Part shown: piece after piece, positions 29,901 through 50,043 of the stretch
Numbering within the stretch: the stretch's first letter is position 1
Layout: every line of letters starts with the position of its first letter
NCBI GenBank assembly: GCA_018241505.1
Contig: JAFEDS010000012.1
Coordinates: forward strand, 1-64,000
DNA from: Pseudomonadota bacterium
Lineage (GTDB): Bacteria > Pseudomonadota > Gammaproteobacteria > Steroidobacterales > Steroidobacteraceae
DNA length: 64,000 nucleotides
Direction of reading: 5' to 3'
Made by a program: the position numbers and the translations under genes
Notes under the pieces: model-generated
Database searches by the model: none
Told to the model about the DNA's origin: nothing
The model's input: only the letters and a program-made list of their open reading frames with translations

Positions 29901-30078
29901 TCTGCGGCGCCTGCCCCGGATAGGTCGTCCTGATGATGACCTGCACATCCGAGAGGTCGGGCAGCGCGTCTACCGGTGCACCTCGCATGGCCCAAACACC
30001 CCACGCGACCCATCCTGCGGCTGCCAGCAACACCCACAGGCGATTGCGCATGGATAGGCGAATGAGGCTCGCAATCAT
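26938..30078 (-). CDS. cusA: Heavy-metal RND efflux permease CusA/CzcA type
   Basis: This is a 1046-residue inner-membrane proton-driven pump expelling metal ions, probably Cu(I)/Ag(I). It starts [18 protein letters not shown] and has 12 expected helices with two large periplasmic loops. The proton-relay motifs are [19 protein letters not shown] and [17 protein letters not shown], as in CusA. Periplasmic features include [20 protein letters not shown] and [20 protein letters not shown], typical of the monovalent-metal group. It overlaps the adaptor gene by four bases (ATGA). It is the third pump gene of the operon. A divalent-metal (Czc) role cannot be fully excluded by eye. Confidence 0.9.
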
Positions 30079-31301
30079 TGGGCTGCTCCCGCGCGGTCGC
30101 GCCCGCCATCCAATCTCGCCAGGACCTCTTTGAGGCTGGCCTCCGAATCGATCAGGAACTGGCCCGAAGCAACGACCCGCTGCCCCTGCGTGAGGCCACG
30201 CAGGATCACCGTGTTCACACCCACATCCCGGCCTGTTTCCACTGCAGTGGGTATGAAGTGTCCATTCTCGCCTGCGACAATGGCGACCGTTCTCTGGCCG
30301 GTCCGGATCAGGGCCTCGGTAGCCACATACGAGACTGCCTCGGAATCCTCGGCGCCGAGTGAGACGTTGGCGAACATACCGGGCCGCAATCGAGCGCCGG
30401 GATTGGGCAACTCGATTCTTGCTCGGAGAGTTCGCGTCTGTGCGTTGGCTTGCGGAAGAATGGTTATCAATCGGCCCTTGAAGCTCTCGCCGGGATAGGC
30501 AGGTAGGCGCACCGTCACATCGCGGCCGGTTGCCATTTCAACTCCGCGAGCCTCCGGGATCGCCGCGTCCAGCCATACACTGCCCAGTCCGTTGATGGAG
30601 GCGATCGTGGCGCCGCTCGGCATCGACATGCCTTCGCGGGCATCGAGAGCCGCAATGACGCCGGCAATGGGACTGCGCACGGTGACTGTCGCCTGCGGTT
30701 GGCCGCTGCGCTCAACTTGCGCAATCAGTTCCGGGGGCATTCCAACAAGAGTCATGCGCTCGCGTGCGGCCTCGATCAATGCAGGATCCGCGCTTCTCAG
30801 CAGTGCGAGAAATTCGGTTTGCGCCCCAGTCCACTCGGGCGCCAGCAGATCCACCAGGGGCGCATTCCGTTCAATCACATCGCCCGGAGCGCGTGCGTAA
30901 ACACGCGTAACAAAACCAGCGCTGCGCGTCTGAACAACCGCAATGTCACGCTCATTGAAGCTGATCGATCCCACCGCGGCCACAGGCTGACTCAGCTTGC
31001 CGCGCTGGACCGTTGTGTAGCGGATTCCCAGCAATTGGGTCATCGCCGGGTCGACACGAATCCCGTTCTGCGCTCCTTCGTCGGCATACTTCGGAATCAA
31101 CTGCATATCCATGAACGGTGATTTGCCGGGTTGATTGAAGTGCTGACTGGGTTGCATGGGGTCGTACCAGTAGAGAACCGCTCGAGTCGGTTTCGCCGGC
31201 GAGTCGTGTTGGGAAAGCCAGAAGCCTCCAGCCGCCCCCACTGTAACCAACGCCACGGCCGCGGCCACGAGCGCACCCCGCCTTACAATTGACGAGCTCA
31301 T
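30075..31301 (-). CDS. cusB: Periplasmic adaptor (membrane fusion protein) CusB-like
   Basis: This is a 408-residue adaptor linking the pump to the outer-membrane channel. An N-terminal membrane anchor ([18 protein letters not shown]) is followed by a degenerate heavy-metal-binding segment ([20 protein letters not shown] then MDMQLIP), whose family form is rich in Cys and Met. The lipoyl/barrel core follows ([51 protein letters not shown]). Both gene borders are 4-base overlaps, so the three pump genes are translated as a unit. The Met residues of the N-terminal segment fit Cu/Ag transfer. Confidence 0.88.
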
Positions 31302-32545
31302 CGCGAGCTCTCCAATACAGCGCCGGGGCCATAAAAGTAGTAGAGCTTCGCGGCGGCGACGGCTCGCTTGCCTTCCAGCTCAATCTGCCTGAGCCGCACA
31401 TCGATCAGCTCACGCCTTGTTGTCAGCACGGAAGACAGATCCGCCTTGCCGCTTCGATAACTCGCGAACGCGTAGTCCGCCTTCTGCTGCGCGAGAACCC
31501 GCCGCGTCTGCTGCAATCTGGTTAGCTGTCGAGTCATGGCCTCGTATTCAGCCAACTCACCTTCCAGCTCTTCGGTGTGATCGCGGAACATGGCATCCCG
31601 CTCCGCCTCGACCCGGGTCAACTCCTGGCGCTTGGCACGGATCTGTGGGTCCTGGCGATTCTGCGCGAACAACGGCAAAGCGAGGGTGAACTGCAGCGAG
31701 ACCATGTCGCTGTAAGCGGCCCCTCGGCGGCCATACGCGACTTCAACACCCCAATCCGGCCGCTTGCTCGCCTCCGCCGCGTGCACTTCGGCCTGGGCCA
31801 TTTGTGTCATGGGAACGAAAACCGCCAGGTCGGGATGTTCATGGACATGCTCCCGCAGATGGGCTGTATCGAGACTCAACATCGGGGGTTCGCCAAGCAA
31901 CGGCGCTTCGGCGGCGCTACCGACCCAACGTTTCAGTACAGCCTTGGATTTGGCGATTGCCGCGGCCAACTCATCGCGCTGATCGGCGATGTCCGCCGCT
32001 TCCTGTTTGGGTTCTATGACATCTGCGGGCGTGCCCCGTCCCGTTGCGAGCTGCGCCTCCACCGCAATGGCCAGTAGCCGATTCTCACGCTGGAGGTCAT
32101 CGAACAGAGCCTCCCGTCGTTCGAGGTAGTAGCGTTCGAGCCATGCGACGGCGGTATCCCGACGAACCGACAGCAATCCGACTTGGCGCTCGGTATCCGC
32201 TTTGCTGATCGCCGCCTCGGCCGCGGCCGAAAGAGCCGCGCGCTTGGTACTGTTGGGTATGTCTTGCATGATACCCACCTTGCGCATCGTCATGAAGTCG
32301 CGTGTGAGGCTCCACTGATCCGGTCCCGTGACGGGCAGGTTTTCGATCCCAACCGCCAGCTTCGGGTCGGGTAGCCGTCCGGTGGAAATGGCGGCGGCGC
32401 GGGCCGCTTCCACGTTGGCAGTTTGGTTCGCGATCTGCGGTGCAGTTCGGACTGCGATCTCCAGGGCTGCGTCGAAAGTGAGCGGCTCGGCGCTGGCGAC
32501 GGCAATGGCACTCGCAAGCGAAACGAACAGAATATGTCTGACCAT
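31298..32545 (-). CDS. cusC: Outer-membrane efflux channel, TolC/CusC family
   Basis: This is a 415-residue outer-membrane channel protein, the exit duct of the Cus-type pump. The signal peptide ends in AIAVASAEP, and the TolC repeat pattern is visible in long helical stretches (AALEIAVRTAPQIANQTANV; GRLPDPKLAVGIENLPV; LTTRRELIDVRLRQIELEGK). I chose ATG 32545 because GGAAGGG lies six bases upstream; the frame is open further to 32614. No lipobox Cys is seen. It is the first pump gene. The 126 bases before it hold a small hairpin and separate it from a Cys-rich gene. Confidence 0.87.
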   Translation of the reverse strand: MVRHILFVSLASAIAVASAEPLTFDAALEIAVRTAPQIANQTANVEAARAAAISTGRLPDPKLAVGIENLPVTGPDQWSLTRDFMTMRKVGIMQDIPNSTKRAALSAAAEAAISKADTERQVGLLSVRRDTAVAWLERYYLERREALFDDLQRENRLLAIAVEAQLATGRGTPADVIEPKQEAADIADQRDELAAAIAKSKAVLKRWVGSAAEAPLLGEPPMLSLDTAHLREHVHEHPDLAVFVPMTQMAQAEVHAAEASKRPDWGVEVAYGRRGAAYSDMVSLQFTLALPLFAQNRQDPQIRAKRQELTRVEAERDAMFRDHTEELEGELAEYEAMTRQLTRLQQTRRVLAQQKADYAFASYRSGKADLSSVLTTRRELIDVRLRQIELEGKRAVAAAKLYYFYGPGAVLESSR

Positions 32546-32615
32546 GATGACCCTTCCAAAGGCGATGGAATGCACTCGCTGCGCGCGACGGATCACGCGG
32601 AGTGCCGACTGCATT

Positions 32616-35695: not shown

Positions 35696-36604
35696 TCACT
35701 GTAAATCGACGGTCGTAGTCATGTTGGCGGCCACGGAGACACCGGTGTTGACCGGACTGAAGGTCACCGCACCGTCAGCCTTGTCAGGATCGTCCGAGGC
35801 AGCCTGACAAGTGAACGCCACCGTGTAGGTTCCCGGGGAAAGGAACGTAAACTGGTAATAGTACGGAGGCTGTGAATTGGCCACGGGAACTTTCGAGCCG
35901 ATCGGCAGGCTGGTGTCGCTCGAGGAGCCGGAGCTGTTCATGTCTTTCGGCGCAGTCACGTTCCCGCTGTAGAGATAAACGCCGGGACTGCATCCATCCG
36001 GGATCAGCGTATTGCTGACAACGCCCTGAATGTTGCCGACCGCGGTGTTGTCAATCAGGCGATCGGCCGGTTTGAGAATACACACCGGCGCCTGGCCTGG
36101 CGGACACGTAAGGTCCTTGCGCAGGTCGAAATCGATGGTGTAGTCCACGACACCGCTGCTTGGGACGGTAAAACCGGAGACCAACTTATAGCCGCTCTCC
36201 GAGCCGCTCGGCACCTGCAGGCCGTGCATCGTGCCGTCCGACAGTGTTATGTATGAATTGCTGGGATCGCCGTCGGCGACGACCATCAGCCGGATCTGAC
36301 TATATTTGCCCGCGATAATCGGCTGGTTGAACAGCACTGCGCTGGCCGTGCCGCCGTCCTTCAGCAGGTCGATGCTCTTGGGTTGAGCAAAGGTGATGGT
36401 GACCGGGGAGCCGCTGTTACCCGTCAACTCCACCCCGGTGAATTTAACAACGACTGCCTCAGCGCCGTCGACGGGAGCGTCGGCAACTGACAACTTCATT
36501 TGCCCCGATCCCGCGACATCGCCGCCGCCGCAAGCGGCAACAACGAGCAGCGTGCCAGCCAGGAGCACACCATGAAGTGCACCCCGTCGTGAATGTCGAC
36601 CCAT
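35696..36604 (-). CDS. DUF4382 lipoprotein
   Basis: This is a 302-residue predicted lipoprotein. The N-terminus has a signal with the lipobox LVVAAC (Cys about 25) followed by GGG. The next part matches the DUF4382 pattern: GQMKLSVADAPVDGAEAVVV, FTGVELTG, SIDLLKDGGTA, AGKYSQIRLMVV and SGFTVPSSGVVDYTIDFDLR. The C-terminus looks like a carboxypeptidase-regulatory-like or bacterial Ig-like fold (YYYQFTFLSPGTYTVAFTC). Function is unknown. It precedes the His/Asp-rich gene. The 215-base space upstream contains the 11-base palindrome GACAATTTGTC but no clear promoter. Confidence 0.78.
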   Translation of the reverse strand: MGRHSRRGALHGVLLAGTLLVVAACGGGDVAGSGQMKLSVADAPVDGAEAVVVKFTGVELTGNSGSPVTITFAQPKSIDLLKDGGTASAVLFNQPIIAGKYSQIRLMVVADGDPSNSYITLSDGTMHGLQVPSGSESGYKLVSGFTVPSSGVVDYTIDFDLRKDLTCPPGQAPVCILKPADRLIDNTAVGNIQGVVSNTLIPDGCSPGVYLYSGNVTAPKDMNSSGSSSDTSLPIGSKVPVANSQPPYYYQFTFLSPGTYTVAFTCQAASDDPDKADGAVTFSPVNTGVSVAANMTTTVDLQ

Positions 36605-36819: not shown

Positions 36820-39800
36820 TCAGCTCGAATGCGGTGTCTGCGCCGCGTGCGCGATGATTTTGACAGTCTGTCCGGGCGCGAGGCGCTCAGCGCCCCGTAC
36901 CACCAACTGATCGCCCGGCGAGACAGGTCCCCTGACCTCCACGACATCGGCCAGGGCGATACCCGGGGTCACATCCAACTCTTCGACCGTGTTGGCATGG
37001 CTCACCCGCAGCACGTAGGAATGGTTCTCGCGGATGACCAGCGCGTCGCGGGGAATCGTGAGGGCGGTGCGCTCGGCCGCGGAAGGCAGGCTGACCTCGA
37101 CGGAGGTTCCGACCAGCCAGTCAGGATCCTGGAAGACCACCCGGATTTCGAATTGGCGGGAGCGGTCATCGCCCACCGGGACGATAGCCCGGATGCGGCC
37201 GGGGCGCTCCTGATCGTGATCGCGGATGCTCACCGTCTGGCCGGTGCGAATGTTCGCAGCGAGCCCCAGTGCAGCGGTCGCGCGAGCTTCGATGTCAGCC
37301 GTATTTACCAGGCGTACGGTGGCGGCTCCCAACTGCACGTACTCGCCCTTTTGTATGAAACGCTCGGTCACCACGCCGGGAAAAGGTGCGCGGATTTGCG
37401 ATTCGTTGATGTCGTACGCTGCTTCGCGGAGCTGCGCTTCAGCGCGCAAGACGTCCTCATGAGCGACGTCGCTCTGCGCTCGTGCGTCGTCAAGCTGGCT
37501 GACACTGACCACCTTCGTCGCCGCAAGTTGTGTGAAGCGCTCGAGTTGAGTTGCGGCAACGGCAAGTTGAGCTTTGGCACGCGCAACCTGCGCACGCAAA
37601 TCCTGAGACCGGATCTGCGCCGGCGTGTCATCCAGCTTTGCAATGGGCTCGCCCGCCTTGACCCGCTGCCCGACTTCGGCCACCCACATCGCGCGCCCGG
37701 CAATGACACTGGCCACGCGTGCATCGTACCGACTCACAATTGAGCCTGGAATCCAGCTCTTGGCGGACACCGAGCGCTCAGTGACTGTGCCAACCTGCAC
37801 CGGCACGGGCGGTCCGGCATCCGCGGCTGCGTGCGCGCTCCGGGTGGCAGCAATACATAGAAGCGCCGCCAACATAACACCAAGGGCATGAGCACCCGTA
37901 GTGGCGGCCCGCGCACCCGCAGCCAAAGAGCCCGCCGCCGTTGCCGCCGGCACACGCGACACCCGCCTCTGAAGCAGCCGCATCAGCGCCGGAATCAACA
38001 CGAGACTGAACACGAGACTCACCACCACACCACCAATATTGACCGCCGCGAGACCCCGATAGATCACGCTGCCCGGACCTGGATTCACGGCCATGGGCAG
38101 TGCGCCGAGCGCTCCCGTGAGCGTGCTTGCCAGAATTGCACGCAGCCGTTGATTGAGTCCGGCCCGAATCGCTTCTTCCAGCGCCGCGCCCGTCGATTCA
38201 ACACTGCGCACGGCGGCTACGAGCAGGATCGCGTGATTGATGATGACGCCGATCATCATGACGAACCCGATCATGGACAGCAGATCCAGCGCCTGAAACT
38301 TCACCACATCGAGCATGCGCAGGCCCACCACACCGCCGATGAGCGCCAGCGGTACGGTCAGCAGCACAATCAGGCTGTCTCTCACGGAGCGGAACAGGGC
38401 GGTCATCAACAGCAACAGCACAACCAGCGCGACACCAAACACCCGTGACATGGTGTGCAGTGTCTTGCTGAGGCTGTCGGCACTTCCAGCCATGCGGATC
38501 GCGCCGTCCGCAGGTAACTTCGCCCGCAGTTCGGGCAGGACATCCCGATTGATTGTGCTGAGAACCTGTTCGAGTGACAGTGACGCCGGAGGGTCCACCG
38601 TGAGAGTCACCGTACGGCGATGGTTGAGCCGGCGAATGGCCGGGGGCCCGAGCTCGGTCGACAATTGCACCAGATCCCCGAGCCGTACGACCGTGCCCGA
38701 GGCTGTACGCAGAGGCGCGTTCGCAAGATCCTCGGGAGTCGCGCCCTCGCTGGACCGCAACACGATCGGCAATCGCGATTTGCCGTCGAAGTACTCGCCC
38801 AACCACGCCCCTTCCCCCACCGTACGGATCACGGTACCGAGTGTGGCTCGATCCCAGCCCACTTCCGCAATGCGCCGGTCATCCGGAACCGCATGCAACT
38901 CGAGCGCAACATCCTCGGGGTTGGGAAAGCTCTGTACCGCGGAGTTGGGGAAAGTCTTCTCGAGCAGCGCCCGTCCCTCGAGAGCCACCCGGTTCAAGGG
39001 CGCGGTGTTCTCACTCTGCAAATGAATGCCGACCGAGCGCGCCGAGCCGCCGATTCCGCCGAACAAATCGCCTTCGGCCGCGAAGGCGCGGGTATCCGGC
39101 AAGCCGACAATGATCTTGTCCCGAATGATCGTTTCGAGCTCGCCGATGCGCGTCTCGTCCTGCACCCGGGCGCCGATCGTGCCGCCGCCCGGCCATGTCA
39201 GGACGTACCAGTTCTTGAGCCTCGGCTCGAGCCGTCCCTCCATGTACGGACGCATGCGCTCCAGGATCGTCGGCAGCAATTCGCGGTTGACGGCTTCGGA
39301 GCTCATGCCCGGCGGGAAGTTGAAAAAAGCGTCAATGGCCGCGCGTTTGACCGGCGGCAGATAGTCGAGCGGTGGCAACAGCCACCACGCCAGGCTCAGC
39401 GGCAGCACCAACAGCCCAGCGATCCACGACACTTGTTTGGGCCTGGAGTTTGTGACCCGCAGTACCCACTCCGCAAGTTGCGGCCAGCCGTGCCCGTAGC
39501 CGGATGGGCGCAACGGCCGGTCGAGAGCCAAGCTCAGCGAGACCGGCAACAAGGTCAGCGCAACAACAATGGAAATCGCGACGGCAATGGAAATGGTGAG
39601 TGCCAGATCGCCGAAAAGCTGTCCCTCGACGTCTTTGAGGAACAGAACGGGCACAAAAACCGCAATCGTGGTGGCGGTCGAGGCAATCAGGGCACCGGCC
39701 ACCTGCCGCGCTCCCTCGCGGGCGGCTTGCTGCAATGGCAGGCCACTCTCGCGCAATCGCACGACATTTCCTGAAACAACAATGGCCCCCTCGACCACCA

Positions 39801-41004
39801 TGCCAACCGCCAGCGCGAGTCCCGCTAGGGAAATCACGTTCAAACTGCGGCCGAGCAGGTCGAGCACGGTAAAGGTCGCGCACAAACACACAGGTATGGT
39901 GAGCGCGATCAGGATCGTCACGCGCGTCTCGCGCATGAACCACCAGACCACAATCAGTGCCAGCAGCGTTCCGACAATCAGATTTTCAGACAGCAGATTG
40001 ACGGCGCGATGAATAAACAAAGAGGCATCGAACGACTGCTCGATCCCCAGGCCGCGCGCCTTCAGGGGGCCATCGCGCAGTTCGGCCACCGCGGCCTTGA
40101 CCGTCTCGAGCGTGCCGAGAACATTGGCACCCGGCGTGCGGAAAACCTGGATGCCGATGGCCGGATTGCCATTCTGATAGCCGAATTGTTGGCGAGCGGG
40201 CGGGGCGATGTCGATGGTGGCCACATCGGACAGCCGGACAGGACGGCCGTCGCGCCAGGTCAGTACGAGATCTCCCAACCGGTCAGGTTTGAATAGACCC
40301 GTGAAACGCAGGGTGTATTGGCGGCGGCCCACGTCGAGTTGGCCGCCTGAGACGTTGTTGGCTGCTGCGGCCTGCGCCGCGATATCCGGTACCGCAATTC
40401 CCAGTGCCGCCGCCCGTTCGAGATCTACGGTGATCCTGACATCATCCGGAGGGCCCGCGTTGACGTTGACAGCCGCTACACCCGGGATTGCTTCGAGCCG
40501 CGGCCGCACGGTGTCCTCTATAAAGCGCCGTTGCGACTCGATCGTGCCCGGCGTTCCGGCGAGTTGTTGGACGAAGAACCAGGACAGGGTCTCGTTCGCG
40601 TTGCCATCGCCGCCGCCGAGACTCACGATGGGACGGTCCGCGTCCCTGGGCAACGGGCGCAATCGGTTCAGGCGCCCAATGACCTCCACGAGCGCGTTCT
40701 TCATGTCGGTTCCGAGCGCGAAGCGCAGATTGATTTGGGCATTGCCGGCGTTGGCCGTGCCTTCAATTTCCTCCACCCCCGGCATGCCCTGCAGCACATT
40801 CTCGAGTGGCTCCAACAATTCGGATTCCACTTCCTCGGGCGAGGCCGTCCGCCACTGGCATTGGATGGAAATTTCGGGCCGGTTGATGTCCGGAAAAAGC
40901 TGCAGCGGCAATCGGCTCAGGCCGAGCGTGCCCAGAAGGACAATGAACAACGCGATGACCGCGACCGCAATAGGACTACGGCCCGACCATTGGACACTCT
41001 CCAT
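36820..41004 (-). CDS. Fused RND permease plus periplasmic adaptor in one polypeptide
   Basis: This is one uninterrupted frame of 1394 residues. Residues 1-1020 are a complete RND permease (SRLPLQLFPDINRPEISIQC at the start; helices and both periplasmic loops; AVNIGGVVVSLVFSLVLIPA near the end). After a linker, residues about 1038-1060 form an extra hydrophobic segment (HALGVMLAALLCIAATRSA). From about 1061 a full membrane-fusion protein follows (MWVAEVGQRVKAGEPIAKLD; IRAPFPGVVTERFIQKGEYV; VEVRGPVSPGDQLVVRGAER). Because the permease C-terminus is cytoplasmic, the extra helix would carry the adaptor to the periplasm, so the fusion is topologically sound. The proton-relay motif reads GMVVEGAIVV (E405-G406) instead of Asp-Asp or Asp-Asn. 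No outer-membrane channel gene is adjacent. The substrate is unknown. Confidence 0.85.
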   Translation of the reverse strand: MESVQWSGRSPIAVAVIALFIVLLGTLGLSRLPLQLFPDINRPEISIQCQWRTASPEEVESELLEPLENVLQGMPGVEEIEGTANAGNAQINLRFALGTDMKNALVEVIGRLNRLRPLPRDADRPIVSLGGGDGNANETLSWFFVQQLAGTPGTIESQRRFIEDTVRPRLEAIPGVAAVNVNAGPPDDVRITVDLERAAALGIAVPDIAAQAAAANNVSGGQLDVGRRQYTLRFTGLFKPDRLGDLVLTWRDGRPVRLSDVATIDIAPPARQQFGYQNGNPAIGIQVFRTPGANVLGTLETVKAAVAELRDGPLKARGLGIEQSFDASLFIHRAVNLLSENLIVGTLLALIVVWWFMRETRVTILIALTIPVCLCATFTVLDLLGRSLNVISLAGLALAVGMVVEGAIVVSGNVVRLRESGLPLQQAAREGARQVAGALIASTATTIAVFVPVLFLKDVEGQLFGDLALTISIAVAISIVVALTLLPVSLSLALDRPLRPSGYGHGWPQLAEWVLRVTNSRPKQVSWIAGLLVLPLSLAWWLLPPLDYLPPVKRAAIDAFFNFPPGMSSEAVNRELLPTILERMRPYMEGRLEPRLKNWYVLTWPGGGTIGARVQDETRIGELETIIRDKIIVGLPDTRAFAAEGDLFGGIGGSARSVGIHLQSENTAPLNRVALEGRALLEKTFPNSAVQSFPNPEDVALELHAVPDDRRIAEVGWDRATLGTVIRTVGEGAWLGEYFDGKSRLPIVLRSSEGATPEDLANAPLRTASGTVVRLGDLVQLSTELGPPAIRRLNHRRTVTLTVDPPASLSLEQVLSTINRDVLPELRAKLPADGAIRMAGSADSLSKTLHTMSRVFGVALVVLLLLMTALFRSVRDSLIVLLTVPLALIGGVVGLRMLDVVKFQALDLLSMIGFVMMIGVIINHAILLVAAVRSVESTGAALEEAIRAGLNQRLRAILASTLTGALGALPMAVNPGPGSVIYRGLAAVNIGGVVVSLVFSLVLIPALMRLLQRRVSRVPAATAAGSLAAGARAATTGAHALGVMLAALLCIAATRSAHAAADAGPPVPVQVGTVTERSVSAKSWIPGSIVSRYDARVASVIAGRAMWVAEVGQRVKAGEPIAKLDDTPAQIRSQDLRAQVARAKAQLAVAATQLERFTQLAATKVVSVSQLDDARAQSDVAHEDVLRAEAQLREAAYDINESQIRAPFPGVVTERFIQKGEYVQLGAATVRLVNTADIEARATAALGLAANIRTGQTVSIRDHDQERPGRIRAIVPVGDDRSRQFEIRVVFQDPDWLVGTSVEVSLPSAAERTALTIPRDALVIRENHSYVLRVSHANTVEELDVTPGIALADVVEVRGPVSPGDQLVVRGAERLAPGQTVKIIAHAAQTPHSS

Positions 41005-41164: not shown

Positions 41165-42340
41165 TTAACCGATCACTCCGCCGGTCGCCAAAGCCTCAAC
41201 TTCCGCCCGGCTGAACCCAGCCCCTTCGAGCACCTCAAACGTGTGCTCCCCGGGCCGTGCCAACAAGGTCGAAGAGCCGCTGCGGCGATCCCCCATCTCA
41301 ATGGGCAGGGTAGGCAAAAGCGTCGCGCCACCCCCGGGCAACACCACCGGCGCCAGCCCGCCGCTCGCCAGCAAATGCGGATCCTCGAACAGCTCCTCCG
41401 GCTTGCCAATGGGTGCAAAGGGCAGCCCGGTGTGTTCCAGCTTGGCGAGCAGGTCCGCCCTGGAGTAGCGTGCCAGCACCGCGCTGACCTGCGGCAGCAG
41501 CTCCGGTCGCGCCTGCACCCGCTGATTGTTGGTCTTGTAGCGCGGATCTTCCGCCAGGGCCTTCAGTTCGAACACCTCGCAGAACTTCTGCCACAGCCCA
41601 TCCGAGACCACGCCCAGGAACACCTGCTCGTGATCGCTGGTCGTGAACACATCGTAGATGGCCCAAGCTGACACGCGCACGGGCATAGGTTGGGCCGCCT
41701 GACCCGTGACCGCCTTCTGTGCCATGTGCTGCCCGACCAGGTAGACGCTGGTTTCAAAGAGTGCGCTGGTCAGCTTCTGCCCACGCCCGCCGGTCTGCCG
41801 TTCCAGGAGCGCCGCCAGAATGGCAATAACCGCAAACATGCCACCCGCTACATCAATAACCGAGGATCCAGCGCGCAGCGGCCGCCCCGGCGGTCCCGTC
41901 ATGTAGGCGAGGCCACTCATCATCTGTGCCACTTCGTCCAGCGCAGTCCGATGTTGGTAAGGGCCTTCCAGGAAGCCTTTTTCAGAACAGTAGATGAGAC
42001 GCGGGTTCTCGCGGCTCAGGCTCGTGTAGTCCAGTCCCAGTCGATCCAGCGTCCCGGGGCGGAAGTTCTCAATCAACACATCCTGCGTGGCAACCAGGCG
42101 TCTGGCGCTCGCCAAGCCGAGCGGACTCTTGATATCCAGGCAAATGCTCTTCTTCCCGCGGTTGTACATCGGAAAGTAACCGGCGCCCGAACCCTTCAGG
42201 TTGCGCGTGGCGTCGCCGCCGATCGGTTCGACCTTGATCACTTCAGCGCCGAGGTCGGCCAATACCGCGCCCGCGGCGGGTCCCATGACCATGTGAGTGA
42301 ATTCGATCACCCGCAGCCCCTGCAACGGAAGCGCCCTCAT
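41165..42340 (-). CDS. Class III (CaiB/BaiF) CoA transferase
   Basis: This is a 391-residue enzyme moving CoA from a thioester to a carboxylic acid. It shows LRVIEFTHMVMGPAAGAVLA, LGAEVIKVEPIGGDATRNL, NRGKKSICLDIKSPLGLAS, VLIENFRPGTLDRLGLDY, and the likely catalytic Asp in RTALDEVAQMMSGLAYMTG. I chose ATG 42340, which overlaps the lyase stop as ATGA; the open frame further upstream lies inside that gene. It is the last gene of a seven-gene operon. In this context it probably activates the hydroxy-diacid made by the LeuCD-like enzyme so that the adjacent lyase can split it. That sequence of steps is inference. Confidence 0.87.
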   Translation of the reverse strand: MRALPLQGLRVIEFTHMVMGPAAGAVLADLGAEVIKVEPIGGDATRNLKGSGAGYFPMYNRGKKSICLDIKSPLGLASARRLVATQDVLIENFRPGTLDRLGLDYTSLSRENPRLIYCSEKGFLEGPYQHRTALDEVAQMMSGLAYMTGPPGRPLRAGSSVIDVAGGMFAVIAILAALLERQTGGRGQKLTSALFETSVYLVGQHMAQKAVTGQAAQPMPVRVSAWAIYDVFTTSDHEQVFLGVVSDGLWQKFCEVFELKALAEDPRYKTNNQRVQARPELLPQVSAVLARYSRADLLAKLEHTGLPFAPIGKPEELFEDPHLLASGGLAPVVLPGGGATLLPTLPIEMGDRRSGSSTLLARPGEHTFEVLEGAGFSRAEVEALATGGVIG

Positions 42341-43260
42341 TGGCGAAACCCCAGTGGTAGCCCCGCCAACGGCGTAAATCCGTACAACTCGTCCGTCGCC
42401 GGCAATGCCTTTCGCAACACCTCTCGTGCCGCAAACAACCCTTCCAGTTTGATTCCCGTCTTCAGTCCCATCGCCTCCAGCATGAACACCAGGTCCTCGG
42501 TCACAATGTTCCCCGAAGCACCCGGAGCGAACGGGCAACCGCCCAACCCGCCCAGCGAGCTGTCGAACGTGGAGATGCCCACGTCGAGGCCTGCCAACAC
42601 ATTGGCCAGCCCGAGTCCGCGGGTGTTATGCAGATGCAGTCCGTTCAGCGCATGCTCTCCCACGGCTCCCCGGATGCGCCGGACCAGTGATTTGATTTGA
42701 GTGGGGTTGGCATAGCCGGTCGTATCCGCCAGGCCCACTTCATCGCAGCCGGCGCGCATCAGTTGCTCAGCGAGGGCGACCACACGATCGGCGGGCACGG
42801 CGCCTTCCAGCGTGCAGCCGAACGCAGTCGATAAACCACCTTCCAGAGAAGGACGCCGATCCTCGGGCAACGACGCTATCAGCTCGGCGATAGCGTGAGT
42901 CTCGGCAACGATCTGTTCGTGTGTACGCCGTATGTTGCGCAGGCTGTGAGTTTCGGAAACCGACACCGGAACGGTGATCTTGTGAGCGCCGGCTTCTACC
43001 GCCGCCTGTGCCCCCTCGAGGTTAGGCACCAGCACCGCCACCGTCAGGCCCGGCAGAGTACGGGCGAATCGCACCACGTCGCCGGTATCAGCCAACTGCG
43101 GCAGCAATTTGGCCGGCACGAAGCTGCCGACCTCGATCTCGCGCACGCCCGCTGCGTATTCGGCGGCTACCCAGGCACACTTGGCTTCCAGCGGCAGAAT
43201 GCTTCGGATGCTCTGCAGCCCGTCGCGCGGCCCGACTTCGCTGATCAGTATCTGTGTCAT
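42337..43260 (-). CDS. Hydroxymethylglutaryl-CoA lyase-family enzyme
   Basis: This is a 307-residue TIM-barrel lyase of the HMGL group, which cleaves a 3-hydroxyacyl-CoA diacid to acetyl-CoA and a keto acid. Signature motifs are SEVGPRDGLQ (catalytic Arg and Asp), GLHLHNTRGLGLANVLAG (metal His pair), and FDSSLGGLGGCPFAPGASGN followed by TED, with the conserved Cys. The natural substrate may be HMG-CoA or a relative such as citramalyl-CoA. Four-base overlaps link it to the LeuD-like and CoA-transferase genes, so its substrate is probably made by these two enzymes. Confidence 0.87.
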   Translation of the reverse strand: MTQILISEVGPRDGLQSIRSILPLEAKCAWVAAEYAAGVREIEVGSFVPAKLLPQLADTGDVVRFARTLPGLTVAVLVPNLEGAQAAVEAGAHKITVPVSVSETHSLRNIRRTHEQIVAETHAIAELIASLPEDRRPSLEGGLSTAFGCTLEGAVPADRVVALAEQLMRAGCDEVGLADTTGYANPTQIKSLVRRIRGAVGEHALNGLHLHNTRGLGLANVLAGLDVGISTFDSSLGGLGGCPFAPGASGNIVTEDLVFMLEAMGLKTGIKLEGLFAAREVLRKALPATDELYGFTPLAGLPLGFRQ

Positions 43261-43880
43261 GTCAGGTAGATCCAGGGCCGCGCCCGCGCGTCCCGCTCAA
43301 TAAAATCCTCAATGGCCGGACGGTTCTTCAAAGCCATGCCGACCGAGTCCAAGCCCTCCAACAGCATCTCGCGCGCCTGCGGTTCGAGATCGAAAGGGAA
43401 GGGCCCCACGCCGGGTGCGGATACCTGGCAGCGGATTAGGTCCACAGTCACCGCATTCTCGCCAGGATCGTCGCGCACCACCGCTTCGATCTCGCCGATG
43501 CAGGACGCGGGCAACACCACCGGCAACAATCCGTTGCGAATGCTGTTACCGAAAAAGATCGGCGCAAAGCTGGGTGCCAGCACTGCCCGAAAGCCGTACT
43601 CAACCAAAGCCCACACAGCATGCTCACGGCTCGAGCCGCACCCGAAGTTCTCACCGCCGAGCAGAATCCGCGCATTCGAGTACGGCGCCTGGTTCAACAC
43701 AAAGTCCGGATTGGGGGACCCGCCCTGGGCATCGCGGTAGCGCCAACCCGCGAACAACCCGGCCGCCAACCCGGTTCGCCCCACGGTTTTGATGTGGCGC
43801 GAAGGTATGATGGCGTCGGTATCGACATTGGCGCGTACCAGCGGCGCTGCGACGGCGGTGACTGTTGTGAAGGGTTGCAT
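43257..43880 (-). CDS. LeuD-like small subunit of aconitase-family hydro-lyase
   Basis: This 207-residue protein matches the swivel-domain subunit of 3-isopropylmalate dehydratase relatives: RANVDTDAIIPSRHIKTVGR, ILLGGENFGCGSSREHAVWA and LAPSFAPIFFGNSIRNGLLP. The LeuC-like partner lies 6 bases upstream. The gene context is catabolic, not leucine synthesis (no leuA or leuB), so a branched hydroxy-diacid such as citramalate or dimethylmalate is more likely than isopropylmalate. Substrate choice cannot be read from the sequence by eye. Confidence 0.87.
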   Translation of the reverse strand: MQPFTTVTAVAAPLVRANVDTDAIIPSRHIKTVGRTGLAAGLFAGWRYRDAQGGSPNPDFVLNQAPYSNARILLGGENFGCGSSREHAVWALVEYGFRAVLAPSFAPIFFGNSIRNGLLPVVLPASCIGEIEAVVRDDPGENAVTVDLIRCQVSAPGVGPFPFDLEPQAREMLLEGLDSVGMALKNRPAIEDFIERDARARPWIYLT

Positions 43881-43886
43881 GGCGAG

Positions 43887-45305
43887 TCAGTCGTGCAGTC
43901 GCCGAGGGTCTGAGATGTAGCCCGCGATGGCGCTGGCGGCCACGGTCTCCGGGCTCGCGATATGAGTGCGCGTCTCGGGTCCCTGTCGACTCTCGAAGTT
44001 ACGGTTCGTCGAAGACACCACACGCTGCCGGTAGCCGAAGCTCTCGCCTCCCGCATAAAAGCACATGGAGCAGCCGGCCTCCCGCCATTCAAACCCAGCC
44101 TGTTTGAATATCCGGTCCAGCCCCTCCTGTTCGGCCAGCCGTTTCACCCGCCCGGACCCTGGGACGCAGATGGCCCGGAGTCCAGGGGCAACGTGCCGTC
44201 CCTGGAGCACCCGCGCTGCCCGACGAAGGTCACTCAGCCGACTGTTGGTGCACGAGCCAATGAACGCGGCGTCGATCTTCAGGCTCGACAGCGGCACCCC
44301 TGGCTGCAGATCCATATAGCTCAAAGCTCGTTCATAGGCCTCGCGCGAAGTACCTGACTGCTCCAGCGAAGGCACACGCCCGGTGACGGCAATCGCGTGC
44401 GCAGGGTTGGTTCCCCACGTAACCATCGGAGCGATGGCCGCCGCGTCGACATGCAACTCGCGATCAAAGGCCGCTCCCGGGTCGCTCTGTAGCGCCGACC
44501 AATGCTGCAGCGCCGCCGGCCACTGCTGCGCTGTCGGAGCAAACGGACGGCCTTGCAGATGCGCGAACGTTTTCTCATCAGCCGCAATCAACCCGGTCAC
44601 GGCGGAGAACTCAGTCGTCATATTGCACAAGGTCAACCGCGACTCCAGGTCCATTGCACCAATGGCCTCGCCGCTGTACTCAACCACGCAGCCGTTGCCG
44701 CCAGCCGAGCCATGACGGGCAAGCAAAGCAAGGCTCAAGTCCTTTGCCGTCACTCCGGGAGCCGCCTGGCCGTCAAACCACACACGCATGGATTTGGGCT
44801 TGCGCATGCGCAGCGCCCCCGTCGCCAATGCTTCCTCTGCGTCCGTGGATCCAATGCCCCATGCCAACGCGCCCAACGCTCCCTGCGTGCAGGTGTGGCT
44901 GTCAGGGCATACGACTGTCGCGCCCGGCAGTGCGATACCCAACTCTGCCGAGACCACGTGAACGATACCCTGCTCGGGATCCTGTATGTCAAACAGGGTG
45001 ATGCCGGCAGCCCGCGCCGCGGCGCGGGTCTGCAAAATGAACTGCTTTCCACCCGGCATCATCGTGTCATCCCCGCGGCCCGGGAAGGTGTCGACGATGT
45101 GATCCATGGTGCAGAACGCCCGCTTGGGATCCAACACCGGGGTGCCTCTCGCGGCCAGGCTCTTCAATGCCACTGAGCCGGTCCGCTCGTGCAGAAAAAC
45201 GCGGTCAATGGCCACCACCGCACTGGCGCCGTCCCCGCCCTGGATGATGCAGTGCTGCCGCCAGATCTTTTCAAACAGCGACAGCGGTGCGGCGGAATCA
45301 GCCAT
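43887..45305 (-). CDS. LeuC-like large subunit of aconitase-family hydro-lyase
   Basis: This is a 472-residue [4Fe-4S] dehydratase/hydratase subunit. The iron-sulphur cysteines are in FIGSCTNSRLSDLRRA and EAGCSMCFYAGG, and the family ending STNRNFESRQGPETRTHIAS is present. The N-terminus has the IDRVFLHERTGSVALKSL form of the usual YIDRHLVHE motif. I chose ATG 45305, which overlaps the amidohydrolase gene by eight bases; upstream extension would lie inside that gene. With the LeuD-like protein it should add or remove water on a branched diacid, feeding the CoA transferase and lyase. Confidence 0.87.
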   Translation of the reverse strand: MADSAAPLSLFEKIWRQHCIIQGGDGASAVVAIDRVFLHERTGSVALKSLAARGTPVLDPKRAFCTMDHIVDTFPGRGDDTMMPGGKQFILQTRAAARAAGITLFDIQDPEQGIVHVVSAELGIALPGATVVCPDSHTCTQGALGALAWGIGSTDAEEALATGALRMRKPKSMRVWFDGQAAPGVTAKDLSLALLARHGSAGGNGCVVEYSGEAIGAMDLESRLTLCNMTTEFSAVTGLIAADEKTFAHLQGRPFAPTAQQWPAALQHWSALQSDPGAAFDRELHVDAAAIAPMVTWGTNPAHAIAVTGRVPSLEQSGTSREAYERALSYMDLQPGVPLSSLKIDAAFIGSCTNSRLSDLRRAARVLQGRHVAPGLRAICVPGSGRVKRLAEQEGLDRIFKQAGFEWREAGCSMCFYAGGESFGYRQRVVSSTNRNFESRQGPETRTHIASPETVAASAIAGYISDPRRLHD

Positions 45306-46773
45306 AAGGTCGGGCAAGATACTTGCCACGGGCGGGGCCGACCATCTTGCCATCCTGGTAGATGGGTTGCCCACGCAGGAAGGTTGTCACTACGCGAGCG
45401 TTGAGCTCGATTCCTTCAAACGGCGTGTAGCCCTGGGTCGAGGCCGAATTGGCAGCGTGAATGGTGTCCGTCACCCCGGTCCTCACCAGCGCAATGTCCG
45501 CATCGAATCCGGGAGCAAGCTGACCCTTGCTGCGCAGGCCAAAGCGCTGAGCCGGGTTGGCCGCGGTCAGTTCGGCAATGCGGTACAAGGGCAGGCCGCG
45601 GCGCTCGCCCTCGGTGATGAGGGCTGGCAACAACCACTCGCTGCCCCCGAATCCCGACTTGGCCTTGAAAATCTCAGTGGGCTTCGCCTGGTCCACCTTC
45701 ATCTCGTGGCGGCAGCAGGCATGATCGGAGGTGACCCAATCGAGCTTGCCTGCCAACAGCGCACTCCACAGATACTCGACGTCCTCGGGTGAGCGGATGG
45801 GCGGATTGACCTTCGCCAGCGAACCGGCGGGCGAGTCATAGTTCAGACACAGGTGTCCGATGGTCACCTCGCGCCGGAAGTTGACATGAGGAAACACCTG
45901 GGCCATCTGCATCGCGGCTTCCACCGCCTTGCGGGAGGACAGATGCAGCAGGTTGATGTTGAGGCAGTTGGTTTCATTCGCCAGGTAGCCGGCAATGAAA
46001 ATGGCCAATCCTTCGGAGTGAGGCGGCCGGGCCGCGCTGTAGGCCCGTAGCCCCTGCAACTTGCCCTCACGCTGCACAATCTTTGTGTAGGCATTCATGA
46101 TCTCGGCCGTCTCACAATGCAGTGAGAGGGAAATGATGTCGGACAGCGCCGGATGCTTTTGCGCCGCCGCCTGTACACCGCGCATCACGAACTCGAAGTG
46201 CGCGATGTCATAGTTCTCATCCGCGCCGATCATGAGGAAATCGCGCTGCGAGGCCGATGCCCCGTGCAGCCCGTAGCCCCCATAGAACATGAAGATCTTG
46301 TAGCTGGTGACGCCGTGTTCCTCGATCAGTTGCGGGATCTCCTGGATCTGCGTCGAGTCGACCGGAGCCAGGTGATAGGCGTAATCAACATGAAAATTGC
46401 CGGCCGACAGGCGCAGCGCTTCCGGAAACAGGTCGCGATAGGGGCCGCCCTTGTTCAGATAGTACTGACCCGAACGGAAGTAGTTGAGACTCGAGGTCAC
46501 GCCTCCCTGGGCGGCGGCCTGACTCTCGGTCACCGCGTCTGCAGCGAGAGGCGAATAGATGCCGGTGTGCATGTGCGCATCGACCACCCCCGGAAAGGCG
46601 TAATTGCCCTGGCCGTCAATGACCTGGCGGGCCTTGCTGACATCCAGGCTGGGCCCGATGGCGGCGATCTTCTCGCCCTGCATGGCGATGTCGACGGGTG
46701 GGGTGTCTTTGTGTCCGGGTCGGACGGCGCGCACATTGCGCAGTACACAGTCGTAGTGGATTTTCTCGGGCAT
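45298..46773 (-). CDS. Dihydropyrimidinase/hydantoinase-like amidohydrolase
   Basis: This is a 491-residue binuclear-metal cyclic amidohydrolase. Metal ligands are visible as VVDAHMHTGI (His67, His69), the carboxylated Lys of VTSYKIFMFYGGYG (about 159), LSLHCETAE, NLLHLSSRKA and VTSDHACCRHEM. The C-terminal barrel cap has GLRSKGQLAPGFDADIALVR, typical of hydantoinases, dihydropyrimidinases and allantoinases. The likely job is to open a cyclic amide or imide ring. It lies between the VOC gene and the LeuC-like gene in a tightly packed operon, so the product may become the diacid used next. The substrate itself is unknown. Confidence 0.86.
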   Translation of the reverse strand: MPEKIHYDCVLRNVRAVRPGHKDTPPVDIAMQGEKIAAIGPSLDVSKARQVIDGQGNYAFPGVVDAHMHTGIYSPLAADAVTESQAAAQGGVTSSLNYFRSGQYYLNKGGPYRDLFPEALRLSAGNFHVDYAYHLAPVDSTQIQEIPQLIEEHGVTSYKIFMFYGGYGLHGASASQRDFLMIGADENYDIAHFEFVMRGVQAAAQKHPALSDIISLSLHCETAEIMNAYTKIVQREGKLQGLRAYSAARPPHSEGLAIFIAGYLANETNCLNINLLHLSSRKAVEAAMQMAQVFPHVNFRREVTIGHLCLNYDSPAGSLAKVNPPIRSPEDVEYLWSALLAGKLDWVTSDHACCRHEMKVDQAKPTEIFKAKSGFGGSEWLLPALITEGERRGLPLYRIAELTAANPAQRFGLRSKGQLAPGFDADIALVRTGVTDTIHAANSASTQGYTPFEGIELNARVVTTFLRGQPIYQDGKMVGPARGKYLARPYG

Positions 46774-46784
46774 CGTGTTCTCAA

Positions 46785-47738
46785 TCAGACTTTCAACAAT
46801 TCGAGCAATTCTCCCGCCGGGCCGCGCAGTGTCGCCGCGGATCGCCCCTTGAACGGCGGCAACTCATTGCGCGCGGCAGGGTGAATGAACTTATCCTGCA
46901 AGGCATCGAAGCGCCTGCAATCGAAGCTGACCAGCGCCACCCCTGGAGGCAATCCCCCATCGGGCCGCTGGCGTGGTTTCGCCTTGTCACCGTAATGGTC
47001 AATCTCAATCTTGGCACCGTCGTCCAACTTGACCACCGCCAGTTGCAAGGAGGGCAACTGACGGATCGGGCTCGGAGTATTACCAAACGTATCCTGATAG
47101 AACTTCAAGGCGGCCGGCAGGTCGGGCGCCCCCAACACGGTGATGAAACACCTCCCGACGGGCGACTTCGCCACGGCGAGATCCGGCCGCGGCTCGGTAA
47201 TCCAGGTCAGGTTCAACTGCTCGCCCGCCGGCCCCACCGCGTGCATGGCCTTCAAGTACGAATAGGTCGGGATCACAGCAGGCGGATGCGTCACTGTGAA
47301 TGGAGAGTGCTGCAGCTTTTCATACAGTTTGTCGCTGTCCTGTACCGTGATTTCGGTGGTGGACCATCCCAACGTACCGCTTCCGGTGTCATCGCCATCC
47401 TTGCCCTGCTGCACGAACCGCAAATACGTTTGTTCGCCGCTGGCGGGTCCCACTATCAGGTACGGACTCCCGCCTACCGCGGGAGCGTCCCAGCTCGCCG
47501 CGGTCGCTTTGGGCACTTTGCCCTTGGCGATGACCTGGTAGCCCATGTACTGAGTCCAGGCCGACTCAACGGCCTTCAGGTCGGGCGCCGTAATCGTCAC
47601 CGCACGGATGACTCCCAGGCCTCCTGGGGCCGCCGGAGCGGGAGCGGGTGCCGATTGTGCGAGAGCCCGCAGGGCCGGTGAGAGTGAGAACACCGGACCC
47701 GCGAGTGCGCTGAGTACAACATCTCGGCGCGTAAGCAT
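46785..47738 (-). CDS. Exported two-unit VOC family protein
   Basis: This is a 317-residue protein with an N-terminal twin-Arg-like signal (MLTRRDVVLSALAGPVFSLS) and an Ala/Pro-rich linker, so it probably works in the periplasm. Two vicinal-oxygen-chelate units follow (VIRAVTITAPDLKAVESAWT; CFITVLGAPDLPAALKFYQD) and it ends ATLRGPAGELLELLKV. It is paralogous to the VOC protein at 53753, which shares the TLRGPxGEL ending. Its start overlaps the receptor stop by one base (TAATG). It may be an extradiol-type enzyme, a lyase or a binding protein for the imported compound. Confidence 0.8.
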   Translation of the reverse strand: MLTRRDVVLSALAGPVFSLSPALRALAQSAPAPAPAAPGGLGVIRAVTITAPDLKAVESAWTQYMGYQVIAKGKVPKATAASWDAPAVGGSPYLIVGPASGEQTYLRFVQQGKDGDDTGSGTLGWSTTEITVQDSDKLYEKLQHSPFTVTHPPAVIPTYSYLKAMHAVGPAGEQLNLTWITEPRPDLAVAKSPVGRCFITVLGAPDLPAALKFYQDTFGNTPSPIRQLPSLQLAVVKLDDGAKIEIDHYGDKAKPRQRPDGGLPPGVALVSFDCRRFDALQDKFIHPAARNELPPFKGRSAATLRGPAGELLELLKV

Positions 47739-49969
47739 TAGAAATCCGCCTGTAGCCGCACCATGATCGTCCGCGGGTCGTTGATGTAACCCGTGACGGA
47801 TGGTATCAGGGGGCTCGCGAGCTGCAGGCCGGCCGCGACGTAATGCTTGTTGGTGATGTTCTTGCCGTCAAGCGACACGCGGTAGTGACCGGTCGGGTCG
47901 TTATAGGCAATCGATGCGTCGTACAACGTAACCGCCTGCGTCTGGACCAGCGGCCCTTCATTCGCGACGTTGTTGTAATAAAACCCGGTGTGCCGTGCCT
48001 GGCCAAGCAAATGCACCTTGCCGGGAATCGGGATCGGCGGCGAATAGTCGACGCCCAGGGTTTCCGACCCGGGTATCAGTCCCTTCAGCTTCCTGTTTTC
48101 ACATTGCTGGAACACACCGTGCTGGCTCGTGCAGATAAACGGCTGAGTGTACTTGCCGGTGTAGAACGAGGCGTTGCCATACAACTGCAGCCCGTCCATC
48201 ACCTGCCAGGTCGGCTCCAGCTCGATTCCCTTGACCGTGGCTTTCGAGGCGTTGGATGTGTAGCTGGTGGATGTTCCGGGGAAGAACACCGGCAACTGCA
48301 AGCCATCGTACTTCGCAATGAACAACGCCGTATTCAACCGGAACTGGTGGTTGGGGGTCTGCAGCTTGTTGCCTATCTCAAAGCTGTTGGAGGTTTCCGG
48401 CCCGTAGGCCTGCGGCGCGCCGGCCTGCCCGGGCACACCCGTATTGGCGGTCGGCGGCACCGGATTGATACCCCCGCTCTTGAATCCCTTCGTCCAGGAC
48501 GCATAGGACAGAATGTCCGGTGTCATCTGCCAGTCCACCCCGATCTTCGGGCTGGTGCCCTTGAACTGGTCCTTCAGTGCCTGCGGATGATTGATCAGCG
48601 TGTAGTAATACTGGGTGAAGTCCGCAAACTCCTTCGTCTCGCGGATACCTCCGGTAAGACCTACGCCCCATCCGATGTTGTAAGTAGCCTGCGCGAACAC
48701 CGCATAAGCATCCGTCAATCGCTGCTGGATGTTCTGCGGATTGCCGATGATTGTCTGCGCGCGTCCCTCTTCGTGGAACACGTAGAGACCGCCCACCGCT
48801 TTGATCTTCTCTGACGTGTAGGTCGCGTTGAATTCCTGGCTGTAGAACTCATCCCGCGTGCGGCCATCGCCGCCGGCGCCCAGGTTCAACGCCCCATTGC
48901 CGGTCTTCTGCGCGGCCGCCGTCAGCCACAGGATGCTGCCGGTGCTGTGGATGCTGAGCAGTCCGTAGCCGGTGATGGAGTTGATAGCCAGGTTTTCCAT
49001 GGGCTCGTAGGTCATGTTCAGTGACGCGCCGTTGTTGGTCAGGCTCTGGCCGATGGGCCCGAAAATCTCCGTCCGGGTGAGATCGCGGTTGAACGAGTTG
49101 TTGGCGTACGGGTCGACTACGCCGACTCCGACCTGCAGCGGCACGCCGACGCCCGGATCCGAATAATCCTGCATCGCATAGACGGACAGAGTCGCCTCGA
49201 AGTTGTCCCACGGCGTGAACAACAGCTTGGCGCGCTCGCCCCAGCGTTTCAGGTTGCCGATGCGGTGATCGTAGTACGGATCGTTGAAGAAGCCGTTGTG
49301 ATAACGCTCGACGCCGCTGACCGAGAAGGCGAGCTTGCCCGGAATGATCGGGCCGGTCAGAAAGCCCTTCACTTCGTTGGCCGACCAGTCGCCGAAACCC
49401 ACTTCCGCGGAGCCGGTGAACTCATTCAGCTCGGGCCGGCGCGTGTCGATCTTGATCGCGCCGCCGGAGGTGTTGCGCCCGTACAGCGTGCCCTGGGGGC
49501 CGCGCAGCACTTCCAGGCTGGCGAGGTCGAAGAAATCGAAGAACGAGCCGTTGATACGCGGCTGATAGACGCCGTCGATGTAGATACCCACGGCGGGGTC
49601 GAAGTTGATTCCACCCTGCTCCTGGCCGACACCGCGCATCACAATGCGCGCGGAGTTCGAGCTTCCGGTGGAGGGCGTGATGACCGTACCGGGGATCTGC
49701 GCCGACACATCCTGCACGCTGGTGACCTTGCGGTCGGCCAGGATGTCAGGATTGAACGCAGTAACCGCTACCGGGGTCGACTGCACGGTCGCCTTGTAGC
49801 GTTCGGTCGTCACAGTGACTTCCTGCAGACCGAGGCCTCCGCTCGTATCGCCCGCTTCCGTGCTTTCCGTCTGGGCCACCGCGGCGGCGGAGGCCAACAG
49901 CAAGCCGATAGCTGCTGCCAGAGTTGTTGTCGACGTCACGGCACTGGCCGCGGTCAGCCTATTGAGCAT
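47738..49969 (-). CDS. TonB-dependent receptor heading a catabolic operon
   Basis: This is a 743-residue outer-membrane receptor. ATG 49969 opens a clean signal peptide (LAAAIGLLLASAAAVAQ); an in-frame GTG at 50026 would only add a poor leader. The TonB-box-like LQEVTVTTERYKATVQ is followed by the plug (ARIVMRGVGQEQGGINFDPA; LEVLRGPQGTLYGRNTSGGA) and a barrel ending in TIMVRLQADF. No STN domain is present. It is the first of seven overlapping genes ending with the CoA transferase. It is divergent from the cupin operon, with a shared operator between them. Its ligand is probably the substrate of this pathway. Confidence 0.88.
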   Translation of the reverse strand: MLNRLTAASAVTSTTTLAAAIGLLLASAAAVAQTESTEAGDTSGGLGLQEVTVTTERYKATVQSTPVAVTAFNPDILADRKVTSVQDVSAQIPGTVITPSTGSSNSARIVMRGVGQEQGGINFDPAVGIYIDGVYQPRINGSFFDFFDLASLEVLRGPQGTLYGRNTSGGAIKIDTRRPELNEFTGSAEVGFGDWSANEVKGFLTGPIIPGKLAFSVSGVERYHNGFFNDPYYDHRIGNLKRWGERAKLLFTPWDNFEATLSVYAMQDYSDPGVGVPLQVGVGVVDPYANNSFNRDLTRTEIFGPIGQSLTNNGASLNMTYEPMENLAINSITGYGLLSIHSTGSILWLTAAAQKTGNGALNLGAGGDGRTRDEFYSQEFNATYTSEKIKAVGGLYVFHEEGRAQTIIGNPQNIQQRLTDAYAVFAQATYNIGWGVGLTGGIRETKEFADFTQYYYTLINHPQALKDQFKGTSPKIGVDWQMTPDILSYASWTKGFKSGGINPVPPTANTGVPGQAGAPQAYGPETSNSFEIGNKLQTPNHQFRLNTALFIAKYDGLQLPVFFPGTSTSYTSNASKATVKGIELEPTWQVMDGLQLYGNASFYTGKYTQPFICTSQHGVFQQCENRKLKGLIPGSETLGVDYSPPIPIPGKVHLLGQARHTGFYYNNVANEGPLVQTQAVTLYDASIAYNDPTGHYRVSLDGKNITNKHYVAAGLQLASPLIPSVTGYINDPRTIMVRLQADF

Positions 49970-49991
49970 GAAGAACACCCCACAATCGTTA

Positions 49992-50020
49992 TTGACATCC
50001 TCGATGCGAGGAAACACTAT
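49992..50020 (+). promoter_or_regulatory. Predicted promoter of the cupin/methyltransferase operon
   Basis: A perfect -35 box TTGACA (49992-49997) is followed by 17 bases and CACTAT (50015-50020) as a weak -10 box. The predicted start is near 50027, upstream of the first cupin gene. The palindromic site at 50044-50061 would lie just downstream of the start, a blocking position. Confidence 0.4.
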
Positions 50021-50043
50021 CGCCACCTAGATACCTACGTCAA
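50016..50043 (-). promoter_or_regulatory. Predicted promoter of the TonB-receptor catabolic operon
   Basis: On the minus strand TTGACG (50043-50038) is followed after 16 bases by GATAGT (50021-50016, 4 of 6 matches to TATAAT). The -10 boxes of this promoter and of the opposing one overlap, so two polymerases could not bind at once. The palindrome at 50044-50061 directly abuts the -35 box. Confidence 0.4.

Follow-up and report, generated by a model that had tools for sequence, protein, structure and literature searches.

In the 64,000-nucleotide window analysed here (positions 1 to 64,000 of contig JAFEDS010000012.1, Steroidobacteraceae assembly GCA_018241505.1), a single gene on the minus strand encodes an RND efflux permease and, in the same chain, a complete adaptor (membrane fusion protein). 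We tentatively favour, at close to an even chance, a lineage-private fusion of ancestrally overlapping genes whose product would be cut by signal peptidase I into permease and adaptor; judged from the sequence, this is a real-looking and unique fusion in one draft genome that is probably undone after translation. The parts are of known kinds, and it is their arrangement that is unusual.

The Fused Frame and Its Two Domains

The frame (36820..41004, minus strand) starts with ATG and runs through 1394 codons to its stop, and the preliminary description of a 1394-residue permease-adaptor protein is borne out, since ACR_tran and a full RND_mfp match lie in exactly this frame. In Pfam, ACR_tran reaches 561 bits in all (cut-off 28), with its best stretch at residues 9-571, and MMPL matches the second half of the permease (842-1016), while the C-terminal part is matched by HlyD_3 (1203-1294) and HlyD_D23 (1095-1295). 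The NCBIfam model RND_mfp (TIGR01730) covers residues 1069-1383 with 210 bits versus a cut-off of 94.9 and is aligned over positions 1-321 of 322, corresponding to a full-length adaptor; no permease model exceeds its own cut-off among the 25 NCBIfam families listed. Thirteen hydrophobic peaks precede the linker and, as those at 467-485 and 480-498 overlap, they represent 12 membrane segments. With ACR_tran over its cut-off, about 1000 residues, and 12 segments, the permease half is an RND permease of the AcrB/MexB/MdtB kind; its sequence matches in the PDB include AcrB, MdtB, MexB, and CmeB, the closest being solved pumps of the AcrB/MdtB type. The best PDB sequence match of the adaptor is 6vej, a 695-residue chain that aligns to it twice. 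The features of the gene, in the order of translation, are the following:

37972..41004, minus strand: permease part, residues 1-1011, through transmembrane segment 12 (TM12) and the conserved ALMRLL end, ending like the permeases of congeners
37828..37971, minus strand: linker, residues 1012-1059, an Arg-bearing, presumably cytoplasmic stretch and then a signal-peptide-like segment
37961..37969, minus strand: Shine-Dalgarno (SD)-like stretch GAGGCGGGT before GTG 37953, about 7 nt from the paired stretch to the codon
37951..37953, minus strand: in-frame GTG codon of residue 1018, proposed from its SD-like energy as a candidate internal start that would give a free adaptor
37846..37887, minus strand: hydrophobic core ALGVMLAALLCIAA, residues 1040-1053 (14 residues), read as the h-region (hydrophobic region) of a Sec signal peptide
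37825..37836, minus strand: candidate signal peptidase I site A-H-A↓A, residues 1057-1060, predicted from sequence
36823..37827, minus strand: adaptor part, residues 1060-1394, matched by TIGR01730

A Signal-Peptide-Like Segment at the Junction

In AcrB-type pumps the C-terminus of the permease is cytoplasmic, and signal peptidase I generally cleaves at sites that follow the A-x-A rule. In the fused protein TM12 spans residues 990-1008, and the most hydrophobic 19-residue stretch after it is found at 1033-1051, with a mean Kyte-Doolittle value of 1.77. Because Arg residues at 1009, 1013, 1014, 1017, and 1032 stand before this segment, its predicted orientation is N-in/C-out, which agrees with the earlier proposal that it places the adaptor in the periplasm. 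The 1033-1051 peak likewise bears out the existence of the extra hydrophobic segment; its description as an additional helix fits less well, since the core ALGVMLAALLCIAA has 14 residues and is directly followed by TRSAHA↓AAD. The segment is therefore better read, from its sequence, as a Sec signal peptide that belongs to the adaptor and carries an A-x-A site, rather than as an added 13th helix and, being readable in this way, it does not entail an enforced 3:3 ratio of permease to adaptor. The adaptor N-termini of relatives are mostly signal-peptide-like, with an A-x-A motif in the examined stretch in 38 of 49, and the fused junction holds the same parts, namely an Arg-bearing stretch, a 14-residue core, and TRSAHA↓AAD. 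A single-sequence structure prediction of residues 985-1394 gave a mean predicted local distance difference test (pLDDT) score of 44.3 and a predicted template modelling (pTM) score of 0.28 and was not used.

Separate Genes in the Relatives

Three congeners whose junction could be read (L002, L031, and L032) share subfamily and gene order with the fused gene and differ from it in having permease and adaptor as two genes with a 4-nt overlap (ATGA/GTGA), the adaptor being in another frame; their identity to the fused protein is 81-83% in the permease and 64-67% in the adaptor. Of 97 loci given, 57 could be placed for reading of the junction (56 distinct loci, L052 being the same as L105). The remaining 40 were left out because the adaptor lay upstream or was not found, because the contig ended, or because the anchors stood more than 400 nt apart. 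The permease frame meets at least one stop in all 57 junctions, so that the fusion is not a conserved trait; a stop at the junction of close relatives, which the preliminary description had named as a refuting result, is thus what was found, and the fusion is a singleton among the relatives examined. Two loci with more than 400 nt between anchors (L035 and L061) were read separately and also carry separate genes. A conserved family of fusions was thus rejected, with 0/57 junctions fused and no fused relative among the matches listed. Seven candidates with long frames (L037, L069, L097, L103, L104, L105, and L106) proved on reading to be separate genes, and in L014, L015, L027, L028, and L075 the adaptor lies upstream of the permease, so these are not fused either.

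Among the 49 loci in which the adaptor start was set by rule (doubtful in L035, L037, and L061, where the gap measures 196-427 nt), a 4-nt overlap occurs in 24; the adaptor has the congeners' frame relative to the permease in 33, is in register with it in 13, and uses the third frame in 3. The linker of the fused gene measures 180 nt, and all three forward frames are open over its whole length, while the junctions of relatives have a median of 180 nt (range 132-346) and none of the 57 is free of stops in every frame. In the genome itself the fused gene is the only adaptor match in a frame of more than 1000 aa (1401 aa, the next being 679 aa) and, for this reason and because no junction among the 57 is stop-free, the fused frame is more than a chance event.

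Searches with the fused protein matched all 40 relatives at an E-value of 0.001, 5/58 genomes of the genus at 1e-160, 23/217 of the family at 1e-200, 104/396 of the order at 1e-180, 60/369 of the class at 1e-150, and 35/398 of the phylum at 1e-130. In all these sets, which overlap and include the window's own genome, no second stop-free match spanning both domains appears among the matches listed; the best 2 to 15 candidates were scored per genome, so that fusions of more distant pumps could escape. Among the matches listed for the order (59 genomes) and the phylum (60 genomes), adaptor frames reach at most 663 aa; an adaptor scan of named genomes gave one weak relative (29% in its best segment), and a plasmid search returned three records at 1e-50, none covering 80% of the query.

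The ratio of nonsynonymous to synonymous differences (pN/pS) of the adaptor is 0.345, 0.337, and 0.345 between the fused gene and the three congeners and 0.306, 0.335, and 0.326 among the congeners themselves; for the permease it is 0.18-0.20 and 0.17-0.20, respectively, with large synonymous divergences (dS) to the congeners of 1.1-1.6. Constraint on the adaptor half is similar to that on the congeners' free-standing adaptors, with no relaxed selection.

Sequence Error or Genuine Fusion

An error of sequencing or assembly, by which two separate genes of the true genome would appear as one frame, is unlikely in our estimate. It would agree with the singleton status of the fusion among the 57 junctions, with the draft state of the genome (46 contigs, 5.67% contamination), with one run of 99 N in the sampled stretch of the genome, and with a coding signal that is ambiguous over the latter half of the linker. 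On the other hand, no stop occurs in any forward frame from 37985 to 37780, and a single indel would make the permease frame run to 37780 or 37736, deep in the adaptor and unlike the 4-nt overlaps of the congeners; one indel would thus not restore the layout of the relatives. A single miscalled base at a stop codon could be enough, but the layout it implies, with both genes in register, occurs in 13/49 relatives and is absent from the three congeners. When codon usage was scanned over 219 kb of this genome, in a way that detects only switches between coding stretches of more than 150 nt each, no frame switch appeared inside 36820-41004; same-strand switches without a stop within 50 nt were found at C3 80464, C3 53664, and C4 10812, and at each of these sites a plus-strand gene on the opposite strand scores better (at C3 80464, 45.2 versus -20.9), leaving no convincing frame break in the 219 kb. 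Because one indel does not produce the relatives' layout and the 219 kb hold no convincing frame break, the stops in the permease frame of relatives do not by themselves mean an error. A one-base sequencing slip as the full explanation is rejected on the stop-free linker and the same scan; an error of another kind is possible.

Proposed Mechanism and Alternatives

In the favoured reading the ancestral layout, permease then adaptor, would have been that of overlapping genes, with a 4-nt overlap as in the three congeners; the permease stop would have been lost and the two frames brought into register, the adaptor signal peptide being kept. The ribosome would then synthesize one 1394-residue chain whose permease part takes its normal place in the membrane, the end of TM12 facing the cytoplasm, and the internal signal peptide would lead the adaptor through Sec in a new N-in/C-out crossing. 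Cleavage by signal peptidase I after A-H-A (1057-1059) would free an adaptor of 335 residues, and the products, made 1:1, would be a near-normal permease with a short C-terminal stub and a separate adaptor; the latter would go on to form a complex with an outer-membrane channel whose gene lies elsewhere. Translation as a single chain, cleavage, assembly, and correctness of the sequence are the parts of this proposal that we infer.

Several observations weigh against it. The codon bias of the linker (46 codons) favours the fused frame weakly, with -2.6 versus -9.7 and -9.4, and over the second half a different frame is ahead, with 0.6 versus -2.3 for the fused one, and is also signal-peptide-like; this competing signal could reflect two frame changes, either in the history of the junction or by error. 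The alignment of the whole junction, coding ends included, has a mean column identity of 62%, and the linker is too diverged for the exact mutational path to be traced. A-x-A motifs are to be expected wherever Ala is abundant, and of the 38 in relatives some lie too far inside the protein for cleavage. The linker also contains, on the strand of the gene (37897-37884), a hairpin that resembles a terminator and has a weak T run, such sites being common in this region. The fusion is known from one genome of one strain. A bacterial precedent for the cleavage would be fbcH, the cytochrome b/c1 precursor of Bradyrhizobium japonicum, where one chain combines a multi-span membrane protein, a signal peptide in its interior, and a periplasmic protein, and is cut by signal peptidase; it belongs to a respiratory complex whereas the fused gene encodes a pump, and it did not turn up in our literature searches.

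The chain could also stay uncut, as in the preliminary description, with residues 1040-1059 serving as a 13th helix in a covalent pump that carries three tethered adaptors per trimer, the other three places being possibly filled by free ones. The topology fits such a tether, further adaptors that might take these places are numerous in the genome (55 matched stretches, several being parts of one gene), and engineered AcrB-AcrA fusions are, by the title of the report, working transporters. Nevertheless, we consider it unlikely and prefer, with the same reserve as above, the cleaved precursor, given that the core has only 14 residues with A-H-A↓A directly after it, as in a cleavable signal peptide, that the adaptors of relatives are separate proteins, and that the usual ratio is two adaptors per permease (PMC4446572).

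Internal initiation offers another route, in which starts at GTG 37953 (or TTG 37926 or GTG 37962) would add a free adaptor with its signal peptide and raise the adaptor:permease ratio above 1:1; we regard these dual products as improbable. The preliminary description had noted that ATG 37875 has no ribosome site, which holds (-2.1 kcal/mol, no SD-like stretch, 60% of random positions being equally strong), and had argued from it against two overlapping genes, an argument that left GTG and TTG starts out of account and overlooked GTG 37953. The latter has an SD-like energy of -8.6, stronger than the SD-like stretch of the permease start (-7.9 kcal/mol) and equalled by 1% of about 800 random positions, with a spacing of about 7 nt; GTG 37962 and TTG 37926 reach -5.2 and -5.5. 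GTG is also the first possible adaptor start by the script rule in 8/49 relatives, with some doubt in the case of L061. As the scoring covered eight in-frame codons (CTG in two cases), a single value at 1% is only weakly unusual and no more than suggestive, and the adaptor starts of the three congeners have no strong SD (-1.5 to -2.8). A combination of both routes, namely a polyprotein cut at its internal signal peptide plus the GTG 37953 start adding free adaptor, could yield two adaptors per permease from one gene; of the readings considered, we hold it the most improbable.

Comparison with Known Systems

Engineered AcrB-AcrA fusion proteins were reportedly described by Hayashi et al. in J Bacteriol in 2016, functional according to the title. 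Like the fused gene, they unite permease and adaptor in one chain, with the permease first (the order being that of the title), but they are laboratory-made, whereas the fused gene is natural and has an apparent adaptor signal peptide at the join. One sentence of PMC6935241 cites them. In PMC4446572, fused dimeric adaptors are described, namely DSY0927 and engineered AcrA tandems, together with an AcrA copy fused to AcrZ in one structural study; the same source and PMC8300642 give two adaptors per permease as the usual pump assembly. In DSY0927, the AcrA tandems, and the 6vej chain, an adaptor is covalently joined to a pump part, as in the fused gene; however, the join is between adaptors and not between adaptor and permease. 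SecDF of Thermus thermophilus is a fusion of two RND-superfamily proteins (PMC8277102); it also combines two proteins in one chain, but these are two membrane halves without an adaptor. A natural RND permease-adaptor fusion was not found in the literature search, which covered listings and passages.

Proton-Relay Residues and Gene Surroundings

The proton relay of AcrB involves D407, D408, and K940, with Asn941 as a neighbour. The aligned residues of the window's permease are E405, G406, and N923 (with H924 beside it), so that the relay residues are not matched. Across 74 aligned permeases (the window's own and those of 73 loci sharing at least 36% identity), position 405 carries D (62) or E (12), position 406 mostly A (58) or G (13), and position 923 N in all 74; Glu-Gly at 405-406 and Asn-His at 923-924 occur together in the window's permease and in the 11 aligned relatives with identities from about 65% upwards. 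On these residues, this subfamily may relay protons in another way than AcrB does; the mismatch sets the subfamily apart from AcrB at these positions without excluding it from the RND family. The locus L069/L107 (G805:C13), in a genome of another family of the same class, has a permease 69% identical to that of the window, above the 65-66% of the group of relatives in the window's own family; horizontal transfer of this permease is possible on these identities.

No outer membrane factor gene is adjacent to the fused gene, and the absence of a neighbouring TolC-type gene in the preliminary description is confirmed: the only OEP matches on the contig are at 31328-32476, in a separate Cus-like cluster. 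This apparent Cus/Czc-type efflux set (26938-32614, minus strand) lies about 4 kb from the fused gene, its permease having been named by eye and its adaptor and channel from searches. Just downstream of the fused gene, 35699-36604 encodes a DUF4382 protein. Upstream on the same strand, at a distance of 160 nt, a catabolic-looking cluster (41168-50026) includes a CoA-transferase III, an HMGL-like protein, small and large aconitase-type subunits, an amidohydrolase, a glyoxalase-fold protein, and a TonB receptor. Scans of the region gave one promoter-like site versus 0.9 expected and nine terminator-like sites versus 4.0 expected (standard deviation 2.2), none of the latter at the 3' end of the fused gene on its strand.

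Significance

The importance of the finding is limited by its origin in one draft genome and by a trait that is not conserved. If real, the fused gene would be a natural counterpart of the laboratory permease-adaptor fusions and would test how fixed the 3:6 ratio of permease to adaptor is; its junction would represent overlapping genes merged into one, with an export signal retained in the middle of the gene.

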